The notes under the pieces: model-generated
The model's database searches: none
Told to the model about the DNA's origin: nothing
The model's input: only the letters and a program-made list of their open reading frames with translations
Assembly: GCA_022426155.1 (NCBI GenBank)
Contig: JAKMEE010000042.1
Span: 1 to 49,741 of the forward strand
DNA length: 49,741 nucleotides
DNA from: Candidatus Poseidonia sp.
GTDB taxonomy: Archaea > Thermoplasmatota > Poseidoniia > Poseidoniales > Poseidoniaceae
Reading direction: 5' to 3'
Translations under genes and position numbers: made by a program
Shown here: positions 44,739 through 47,253 of the stretch, piece by piece
How positions within the stretch are numbered: position 1 is the first letter of the stretch
How the letters are laid out: every line of letters begins with the position of its first letter

Positions 44739-45155
44739 ATGGTTGAGCAACGCCCCGAGCCTAACGCAAAAGGGCCACTGGGCAGCGCCTCCAAGATGAA
44801 GCGAATGACAAAACAACGCAATCTCATACTTCAGACCATCATGAACCGCCACGACCATCCGTCCGCCCAAACATTGCATGCTGAACTCCAAGAAACCCAA
44901 CCGAACATCGGCCTGGCCACAGTGTACAGAAACCTCTCCGCTTTGGTTGAATCAGGAGGTATTCTTGCCGTACCTCATGACGGTGAAGTTCGATATGACT
45001 GTAATACCGAACCCCACGCCCATGCAACATGCAATAATTGCGGCAACCTATGGGACATCCCCCTCCCCCGAGTCATCGAAACTTCTGGACCTCTTATCGA
45101 AGTTGAATCGATTGAGTTGACCGTACGTGGCCTTTGCACATCTTGTGATGCTTGA
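44739..45155 (+). CDS. Fur-family regulator, PerR-like
   Basis: 138 aa from the ATG at 44739; an ATG at 44796 (MKRMTKQRN) matches the more common shorter N-terminus. The winged helix includes TKQRNLILQTI, HPSAQTLHAEL and the recognition helix TVYRNLSALVESG. Metal-site residues are H93, H95 (EPHAHATC) and the structural zinc cysteines C98, C101, C133 and C136 (C-x2-C twice). The full complement of both zinc Cys pairs and the position directly after katG point to a PerR-type peroxide sensor rather than iron-responsive Fur, but metal specificity cannot be read from sequence. Likely co-transcribed with katG and autoregulated through it. Confidence 0.9.
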   Translation: MVEQRPEPNAKGPLGSASKMKRMTKQRNLILQTIMNRHDHPSAQTLHAELQETQPNIGLATVYRNLSALVESGGILAVPHDGEVRYDCNTEPHAHATCNNCGNLWDIPLPRVIETSGPLIEVESIELTVRGLCTSCDA

Positions 45156-45266
45156 TCGCCAAACGCCCGTTCATTTCGAATGTTTGTTCATTGATTCGCT
45201 GAAGAATTTTCGTCACCTGCCCCTCAGACTTAATGTAGTGTGGGCCATGTCATAATGAGGGTCGTT

Positions 45267-46232
45267 ATGCCTTGGAGACAGATATTAGAAAATTGCAGGC
45301 CGGGAAATTTTAATGACCCGTGGACCGAGTCATCGAATGTCTGGTTCAAACAACTTCAAGCTGCAACCAAAGGCAGAATCGGAGAACAACTTTGTCTCGA
45401 CCACTATCCGGGCTCTATACCGTATCATGTAGATGGATGCGACGTTAGAGCCGGTGAACTAGACATTGAATGTAAAGTAGCATCCCGTAGCTATGCCCAA
45501 GACAATGGACATACATGGAACCAAGTAAGACCACTTCAAAATTGGACACATTTATTCCTCATTGCCGTTGATTGTGAAAACGTAAGAGTGTTTCTCGTGC
45601 CGAAATCAGCGGTTTGGCCTTCGGCGGCAGCAATAATTCCGCTTTATGGCCTACACCATGGCGCGCAGGCCATGGAACAAATTGACCCGTCATGTCAAAT
45701 CAAAACGGGGGCCAACGACCCAATTCCTGTGGTATTTGACCAGTTTGAGATCACCGGCGTGAATTGGCAAGAGATCTTACAAAACCATAGGCCAAACGCC
45801 GACCAACCAAACGATTTGGCTTGGGCAGAATCTGAATTTCTATGGGTGCGGCACCTCCAATTAAGGCCAAGAGGAATTATGGGTGAGAGGATGTATATCG
45901 AAGGTTTAGGCGGAGAGAGAATCACGGATACTAGCCTAGGATACGATATCAGACACGACAGGGCTCGTATAGAAGCGAAATTCTCGAGTAGAACTTATTC
46001 GGGTAATTTGGCCCATCACTGGAATCAAATTCGGCCGGGAGATAATTACACACATCTTTTCCTTGTTGCAGTGGACGCAGATTCAGTCAGAGCTTTCCTC
46101 ATGACAAAGGAGGAGGCCCTGCCCTTTTCTGAAAATCAGCATGGCGGACAAGAAGACACCCAATTTATTGTGTCGACATCGACCGAAGTCATTCCAACAT
46201 GGATGTTGCCCTTCGAGGTCCGTCCTGAATAG
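45267..46232 (+). CDS. Internally duplicated PD-(D/E)XK-nuclease-like protein
   Basis: 321 aa from the ATG at 45267; ATG at 45255 adds 4 residues. It is two copies of one domain. Copy 1 (about 1-163) and copy 2 (about 165-321) share W-x(1,2)-I-L-x-N-x-R-P, W-x-E-S, G-E, a G-x-D, I-E-x-K, S-R-x-Y, W-N-Q-x-R-P, T-H-L-F-L-x-A-V-D, V-R-x-F-L and a C-terminal strand. The putative metal residues match with identical D-to-E spacing: E40, D59, E68, K70 and E207, D227, E236, K238. That is the E-...-D-...-E-x-K pattern of PD-(D/E)XK nucleases. Both sites look intact, so one chain could act like a dimeric restriction-type enzyme. No methylase is adjacent. Base composition seems more AT-rich with AGA codons, which may mean recent transfer. 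Confidence 0.6.
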   Translation: MPWRQILENCRPGNFNDPWTESSNVWFKQLQAATKGRIGEQLCLDHYPGSIPYHVDGCDVRAGELDIECKVASRSYAQDNGHTWNQVRPLQNWTHLFLIAVDCENVRVFLVPKSAVWPSAAAIIPLYGLHHGAQAMEQIDPSCQIKTGANDPIPVVFDQFEITGVNWQEILQNHRPNADQPNDLAWAESEFLWVRHLQLRPRGIMGERMYIEGLGGERITDTSLGYDIRHDRARIEAKFSSRTYSGNLAHHWNQIRPGDNYTHLFLVAVDADSVRAFLMTKEEALPFSENQHGGQEDTQFIVSTSTEVIPTWMLPFEVRPE

Positions 46233-46355: not shown

Positions 46356-47054
46356 TTAGAAGATGTAGGCCTTCTCTTCCTCTGCGGACATTTCATCCTC
46401 TTCGTCTTCGGATTTGAATTTGTATTGGATGAACAAACTCGCAATCGAGAGAACCCCCCCCAACCCCATCAAGAGCGGATCTGCATCACTAAAACGTTGC
46501 AATCCCCACCCCATTGAAATCGATATGCCTGCCAGAATGCCCAATGACCCAATGACGCTTGAGAGCAAAGTTGGCATAATCCCCCTCAATGCGAGCCCAC
46601 CAAAGAACGCCCCGATGGTCAATAGGCCCGAGAGCAAAGGGTCCGCTTCAAAATCTAAGCCAGTGGCGTACCCAATTTGGATGATCAGATTGACGGTGAG
46701 AAAGACGATGGCGAAGGCAAACAATCGCCGGTTTCTCGCCCCACCAATGCCAGCAGCAGCCGAACCAACAATTACAGCGCAAATAAAGCGTATTTCGAAA
46801 AGGAAAGCGGGGGCCTCAGGAGGGATTGTAACCCCAGATTCAAGAACCAAATCGCGAATGTTTTCTTTACCAAAATTTTGATTGCCAACCAAATAGCCTG
46901 AAACAAACCCAAAGACACCCATCGTTAGCGATAAGACGCGTTCACCAAATACCCACATGCAGGTGGCGAGAAGAAAGATAGGGATGCCATAGGCCAACCC
47001 CCCATCTTCAACGAGGTTAACAAGGCTCGAACCAGCTCCTGAGACATCAACCAT
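46356..47054 (-). CDS. Polytopic membrane protein (DUF4203/TMEM198-like)
   Basis: 232 aa from the ATG at 47054 (MVDVSGAG); an ATG at 47072 adds 6 residues. Six or seven closely packed membrane helices are visible, rich in Gly and Ala (LSLTMGVFGFVSGYLVG, IRFICAVIVGSAAAGIGGARNRRLFAF, LLTIGAFFGGLALR, LLSSVIGSLGILAGISISMGWG). This resembles the glycine-rich helix pattern of DUF4203/TMEM198 proteins, a loose similarity. The C-terminus is cytoplasmic and acidic (SEDEEDEMSAEEEK). No transporter signature. Function unknown. The tRNA gene lies 115 bases upstream on the same strand. Confidence 0.65.
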   Translation of the reverse strand: MVDVSGAGSSLVNLVEDGGLAYGIPIFLLATCMWVFGERVLSLTMGVFGFVSGYLVGNQNFGKENIRDLVLESGVTIPPEAPAFLFEIRFICAVIVGSAAAGIGGARNRRLFAFAIVFLTVNLIIQIGYATGLDFEADPLLSGLLTIGAFFGGLALRGIMPTLLSSVIGSLGILAGISISMGWGLQRFSDADPLLMGLGGVLSIASLFIQYKFKSEDEEDEMSAEEEKAYIF

Positions 47055-47169
47055 GGCAGTGCTTTGAACCACCCGTATTTATTTCTTCAACCTCTTTATT
47101 GAGATTAAGTGCTTGATTGAATAAAACGGCAAGCAACCCACCCGTTGAACTTTTTCTTACGGAGGAGAG

Positions 47170-47253
47170 TGCAGGGGGCAGGATTCGAACCTGCGAACTC
47201 ATAGAGACTGGGACCTCATCCCAGCGCCGTTGACCAAGCTGGGCTACCCCTGC
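47170..47253 (-). tRNA. tRNA-Leu (anticodon GAG)
   Basis: On the minus strand the 84-base sequence folds as a class-II tRNA: acceptor GCAGGGG/CCCCTGC with discriminator A, D arm closed by GCC/GGC, anticodon stem CTGGG/CCCAG with loop ATGAGGT giving anticodon GAG (Leu, CUC codons), an extra arm CTC-TAT-GAG, and the T arm GCAGG-TTCGAAT-CCTGC. The long variable arm plus A73 confirms Leu. No intron and no encoded CCA, as is common in archaea. A TATA-like element lies 24-31 bases upstream. Confidence 0.95.

Follow-up and report, generated by a model that had tools for sequence, protein, structure and literature searches.

What kind of enzyme is encoded near the right end of the stretch of DNA analysed here (the window, 49,741 nucleotides), where one gene seems to hold the same nuclease domain twice, and how did it come to lie between its present neighbours? 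An earlier note on this DNA had placed the open reading frame at 45255-46232, which is where we find it, running from ATG to stop and encoding 325 residues. An in-frame GTG at 45240, 15 bases upstream of the ATG at 45255, is a possible alternative start. The gene, its parts and its surroundings are as follows.

44739-45155, plus strand: Fur-family regulator, left flank
45163-45219, minus strand: 3' remnant of a short-chain dehydrogenase gene (tblastn, 13/19 residues identical, E = 2e-5)
45255-46232, plus strand: tandem nuclease gene, ATG to stop, 325 aa
45273-45668, plus strand: half 1 nuclease domain, residues 7-138 (G40, E44, D63, E72-x-K74, K117)
45384-45476, plus strand: half 1 catalytic codons, E44 to K74, from the family alignment
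45669-45764, plus strand: linker between the halves, about 32 residues, taken as the gap between the aligned repeats, borders uncertain
45765-46229, plus strand: half 2 nuclease domain, residues 171-325 (G207, E211, D231, E240-x-K242, K285, Q295, G297, G298)
45885-45980, plus strand: half 2 catalytic codons, E211 to K242, from the family alignment
46356-47072, minus strand: protein without Pfam match, right flank

The two halves had been described as repeats of one domain, and the alignment bears this out. BLASTP aligned half 1 with half 2 at 49/121 identical residues (40% over 121 aa, E = 2e-29), and the local score is 228, whereas 1000 shuffles averaged 28 and never exceeded 53. All the candidate metal ligands listed before are present. 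Their earlier numbering counts from an internal ATG at 45267, and in the 325-residue numbering E40/D59/E68/K70 become E44/D63/E72/K74 of half 1 and E207/D227/E236/K238 become E211/D231/E240/K242 of half 2. The D-to-E spacing, said to match between the halves, is indeed 9 residues in each, as it is in 84 of 86 relatives (the clustered set defined below).

The family, which the earlier note could not name, does have a name. The whole protein matches PADLOC REase_II PDLC03515 (E = 1.7e-7) and, weakly, phrog_6927 of PHROGs (E = 0.048); REase_II is the family's annotation in PADLOC. When the halves were scanned singly against PADLOC, half 1 matched PDLC03515 (E = 0.007) and half 2 matched no family. 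A PADLOC match to 'E2' PDLC00869 (E = 0.0068; 0.0027 in the scan by halves) was taken as chance. Searches of Pfam, NCBIfam and, by sequence, the PDB gave no match for the tandem protein.

Relatives were collected by scanning viral contigs with the degenerate pattern F-Q-Q-[IVM]-R-x4-Y-D. The three contigs found all encode relatives (two-half profile, E = 2.5e-7 to 1.3e-4), which match PDLC03515 at E = 9.5e-18 to 3.8e-15 and phrog_6927 at E = 2.7e-24 to 3.8e-17. A tblastn search with one of them gave 24 phage records (one a marine virus, the other 23 named cyanophages or Synechococcus/Prochlorococcus phages) and no plasmid. A related-locus search with the three viral relatives returned at least three loci, the three queries themselves. 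After two wider pattern scans the sample came to at least 172 ORFs in 170 of the 224 loci scanned, 166 of them from viral contigs and six from phage records. Relatives of the REase_II PDLC03515/phrog_6927 family are mostly encoded on viral contigs and are single-domain proteins; among the matches listed, none of the 172 ORFs has two domains. Two further viral scans were discarded: a W-N-Q pattern gave seven stretches, none related by profile, and a scan for a subfamily resembling the window protein gave one, which was unrelated. On one viral contig (L148:1481-2906, minus strand) two single-domain family ORFs are neighbours, one of them divergent (E = 2e-8), a pair that could possibly represent the unfused precursor state of a tandem.

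Among genome contigs, the pattern scan gave 39 stretches and one clear relative (L271, 156-653, minus strand), a single-domain protein from a delta-proteobacterial MAG that matches PDLC03515 at E = 0.0011 and has Q-V-K where the family has E-x-K. It sits near a contig end, close to an ORF that we take to be PIN-like, and in tblastn against plasmids and phages it found nothing at E <= 0.1. A second candidate, L241, matched one profile only (E = 0.019) and was dropped as a relative.

The tandem itself, judged by sequence, is not met elsewhere in the samples searched. Neither the whole protein nor a two-row profile found anything outside its own genome in viral and genome contigs, and tblastn of phages and plasmids with the whole protein gave no match. 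Half 2 alone, at E <= 10, found six phage and three plasmid records, all weakly; a Gordonia phage IDyn record was dropped, its match being antisense to an annotated gene. The protein found no match in the genomes of 58 other relatives (1/59, its own), nor did the two-half profile in 388 other genomes of the phylum sample (1/389, again its own). At the level of the order, its own genome alone among 318 matched the family profile at E <= 0.01; 35 of these 318 reach 90% completeness with no more than 5% contamination (0/35 matched), and many of the genomes searched are incomplete. Within its own genome the gene is the sole match to the protein.

In a tree of 89 rows, half 1 and half 2 are sisters (100/94) and group with the bacterial single-domain protein (96/92); the midpoint root is for drawing only, and the join of the halves with the bacterial protein is tentative because all three sit on long branches. 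Within the sampled sequences, the duplication looks internal to the lineage of the window protein. The phage nucleases of the family (S-ShM2_059, PSSM7_054 and the S-BM3 'restriction endonuclease') share with both halves the G/E/D/E-x-K layout and a later K, and with half 2 the Q-x-G-G motif. They differ in setting: the phrog_6927 relatives are single-domain proteins, often with a methylase next door, whereas the window protein is a fused tandem on a cellular chromosome with no adjacent methylase.

We then examined which residues the family conserves and whether each half keeps them. After 12 short ORFs were left out of the 172, the 160 that span the domain were clustered at 90%, which reduced them to 86. 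Invariant (86/86 relatives) are the G and E of K-G-x-x-x-E, the D, and the two charged residues of E-x-K; the later K is kept in 84/86, and in Q-x-G-G the Q is kept in 86/86, the first G in 73/86 and the last G in 85/86. One of the scan patterns includes H-D-R and T-E-I-K, which forces D, E and K on whatever it retrieves; among the 25 representatives that this pattern does not match, all seven residues (G, E, D, E, K, the later K and the Q) occur in 25/25. The E-x-K pair, whose loss among homologues would have refuted the earlier reading, is kept in 86/86; the bacterial relative, outside this set, has Q-V-K. Both halves keep all five invariant residues (G, E, D and E-x-K, the last as E-C-K and E-A-K), and half 2 retains every conserved residue including Q-x-G-G. 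Half 1 has an altered C-terminal motif, with H134 in place of Q and A137 in place of the last G. The claim that both sites are intact is thus shown for the metal and lysine residues only: as far as residues can tell, each half retains its catalytic centre, but half 1 truly departs from the family at Q-x-G-G.

The earlier note had also proposed a nuclease fold, and structure prediction agrees. An AlphaFold2 model of half 2, built on an alignment that added half 1, the bacterial protein and 43 viral relatives (45 rows, the relatives being placed on half 2), reached a pLDDT of 82.1 and a pTM of 0.80; the protein modelled from its single sequence reached a pLDDT of 32.6. In the half 2 model, which is of the PD-(D/E)XK kind, helix 39-54 carries E47 (model numbering), D67 directly precedes strand 68-70, and strand 73-81 bears E76-x-K78; for half 1 the fold is suggested by its 40% identity to half 2. 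Foldseek against the PDB gave eight rows at E <= 0.001, all of them NhoI or the Eco15I N-terminal domain (best 7.9e-5; TM 0.52-0.57), followed by DpnI at 3.4e-3. Below these, the best 50 of 252 rows included EcoRV, I-Ssp6803I and many flavoenzymes at E > 0.01. The best viral structure match of the model was a protein of cyanophage S-RIM14 (E = 6.8e-9). The family profile matched no PDB chain sequence at E <= 10, NhoI included, so the link to NhoI is one of fold only.

Taken together, we think the gene probably encodes a horizontally acquired restriction-type endonuclease whose duplicated and fused halves would form a covalent pseudo-dimer cutting both strands. Its ancestor would have been a single-domain REase_II PDLC03515/phrog_6927 enzyme, presumably forming homodimers, whose gene was duplicated and whose copies were then fused. 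The two halves would pair around one DNA site and each would cut one strand, giving a double-strand break. The likely role would be restriction of incoming DNA, hence defence, with the host presumably protecting itself by means other than an adjacent methylase. Given the divergence between the halves, an asymmetric or only nearly palindromic target is probable. Mechanically, the roughly 32-residue linker is plausible, since single-chain PvuII is described as working as a monomer (PMC3857828) and BbvCI tethered by a 21-aa linker as having about full activity (PMC6326814). Engineered single-chain PvuII likewise carries two copies of a small PD-(D/E)XK subunit per chain; it is man-made and acts as a monomer, according to the same account, whereas the tandem is natural and its copies are 40% identical.

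The earlier note had entertained a novel enzyme, but a single-chain protein with two catalytic sites is of a known kind, since such enzymes are already described as Type IIT (PMC4081073). This class (BbvCI, and in single chains BsrI, Mva1269I, AciI, BssSI and BsrBI) has two different catalytic sites, and the sequence of the tandem protein shows two diverged predicted sites in one chain. Its sites, however, appear to come from duplication of one small domain, unlike those of Type IIT, and by the cited description Type IIT systems are generally accompanied by two methylases, with exceptions, whereas none was found in the window. The protein may therefore be likened to Type IIT by architecture alone and would work like it; we do not file it as a member. 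The best solved fold match is the BisI family (NhoI, Eco15I; Type IIM), with an alpha-beta-beta-beta core, and what it has in common with the tandem protein is the helix Glu, the Asp, x-x-Lys and the lack of a methylase companion. NhoI and the Eco15I N-terminal domain are described as dimeric, with PvuII as nearest canonical relative (PMC11347163); they are homodimers with Q-x-K, whereas the window protein is fused, has E-x-K and gives no sequence match to them.

That no methylase adjoins the gene had been noted before, and this holds in the window for a profile made from five phage methylases, which would not pick up other kinds, and by Pfam among the proteins scanned (six plus nine), where the neighbours are a DDAH/ADI-like protein, katG, Fur, a nitroreductase and two without match. 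We applied the same profile around the 61 of 86 representatives whose flanks both exceed 1 kb (the other 25 were left out). A methylase ORF lies within 150 bp in 29/61, always downstream and on the same strand, and 32/61 have no methylase of the profiled type within that distance; counted unclustered, a methylase stands beside 52/106 loci. By subfamily the count is 12/18 for Q-I-R, 17/40 for N-H-[VIL] and 0/3 for others. Two annotated methylases adjoin the family copy of P-SSM7, and Pfam places the two viral methylases scanned in PF01555, while in S-ShM2 and S-SSM4 the copy lies behind a helicase gene and has no such methylase. The counts therefore indicate that the family includes both viral restriction-modification modules and nucleases without such a methylase.

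In its own genome (89% complete) we found no match to PF00145 (m5C) or PF02086 at E <= 1e-5 and two PF01555 genes, on contigs C22 and C31. The C22 gene (37625-38314) encodes an N6/N4 methylase of a kind matched, by similarity, in 11/12 other genomes of the genus, and is a candidate genus-wide solitary methylase. The C31 methylase (529 aa, Type II, PADLOC PDLC03319, E = 1e-57; L283:6644-9822) precedes a 526-aa ORF that contains D...D-x-K and matches nothing in Pfam or PADLOC; as it adjoins this ORF and no counterpart is listed in the 12 other genus genomes, it probably belongs to a separate restriction-modification system. The host could be protected either by the C22 methylase acting in trans, or by a nuclease that depends on modification, or by rarity of the site. 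Elsewhere in the genus, one genome (G005:C7:31091-47470) carries two C5-cytosine methylase genes and an N6/N4 methylase gene within about 16 kb, possibly a defence region.

Protection by dependence on modification would make the protein a Type IIM enzyme, a sub-case of the restriction reading whose probability overlaps with it, and one that we hold possible rather than probable. Such an enzyme leaves unmodified DNA uncut, acting on methylated or otherwise modified DNA alone, and so needs no methylase of its own. The best fold matches, NhoI and Eco15I, are described as depending on modified cytosine and as lacking a methylase companion (PMC11347163), and DpnI comes next; no methylase was found beside the tandem gene, its genome has no PF00145 or PF02086 match, and the bacterial relative has QVK, the NhoI motif. 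Both halves of the tandem, however, have E-x-K and not Q-x-K, a methylase often accompanies the viral relatives, which is the conventional arrangement, a TM of 0.52-0.57 reflects a common fold and says nothing of common specificity, and the family profile matches no PDB sequence, that of NhoI included. More doubtful still is a fuller version, a natural single-chain, methylase-free nuclease of a planktonic archaeon, derived by duplication from a marine virus-type restriction nuclease, whose halves would read different half-sites and which would sense modification and might thus cut phage-modified DNA and spare the host's.

The altered Q-x-G-G bears on a different reading, in which one half alone catalyses; its partner, most likely half 1, would have a part in binding or regulation, like one half of Sau3AI. 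Half 1 has lost the Q and a G of this motif and its branch in the tree is the longer (2.92 vs 1.74), but it has kept the five invariant residues and K117 although the halves differ at 60% of positions, and we consider this reading unlikely. Two cutting halves in one restriction enzyme remain our preferred account.

The locus suggests how the gene may have arrived. Between fur and the nuclease gene, 19 residues read on the minus strand match residues 196-214 of a short-chain dehydrogenase at 68%. This remnant was seen with one of 14 orthologue queries (no hit at E <= 0.1 with the remaining 13), and none of 300 shuffles matched. Using the right-flank protein we fetched 25 loci of the genus (L005-L029) from 24 other genomes. 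A dehydrogenase matches by tblastn in 22/25 (the copy in L005 is adh_short by Pfam); fur lies on its far side in nine loci and katG directly after it in six, one locus (L014) has a different arrangement, and the remaining ones show neither fur nor katG. Of the loci with a listed gap, three (L019, L020 and L023) have an extra ORF between the dehydrogenase and the right-flank protein. The window's own genome has no close dehydrogenase copy (best 30% identity). The nuclease gene stands at the dehydrogenase's place and the resident gene has been displaced. Its GC is 0.471 against 0.506 for the window and its GC3 is the sixth lowest of 28 ORFs, so its composition is only mildly unusual. Gene content and general genome traits suggest that the organism is a Poseidoniales (marine group II) archaeon.

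A selfish, homing-like endonuclease inserted into the dehydrogenase gene might also leave a conserved locus with a scrap of the old gene; the 32/61 relatives with no profiled methylase inside 150 bp, the S-ShM2 and S-SSM4 copies behind a helicase gene and a weak fold match to I-Ssp6803I (2ost, E = 0.035) would fit as well. Yet most of the dehydrogenase gene is gone and not merely split, the nuclease was seen in 1/318 genomes of the order although a homing gene should spread, and 29/61 relatives have the layout of a restriction system, all of which makes this very unlikely. A role in DNA repair or on Holliday junctions, suggested by the same G/E/D/E-x-K layout in archaeal resolvases and a weak fold match to a resolvase (2eo0, E = 0.083), was dropped as highly improbable because the sequence matches are to restriction enzymes and the distribution is patchy (1/318).

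At the level of titles and abstracts, with few subscription papers covered, the literature gave no account of this protein or of a tandem of REase_II PDLC03515/phrog_6927. If active, the restriction enzyme that we favour would be nature's equivalent of engineered single-chain PvuII and tethered BbvCI, a compact 325-residue pseudo-dimer that could be turned into a strand-specific nickase by disabling one site. It would also be a virus-type restriction nuclease settled in a cellular, probably archaeal, chromosome, and since it lacks an adjacent methylase in a cellular host, the question of self-protection is directly testable. In the surroundings, Rfam found two tRNAs only on the stretches scanned, and a tRNA gene (RF00005) lies at 47170-47253 on the minus strand, about 0.9 kb downstream of the nuclease gene and beyond the right-flank gene.
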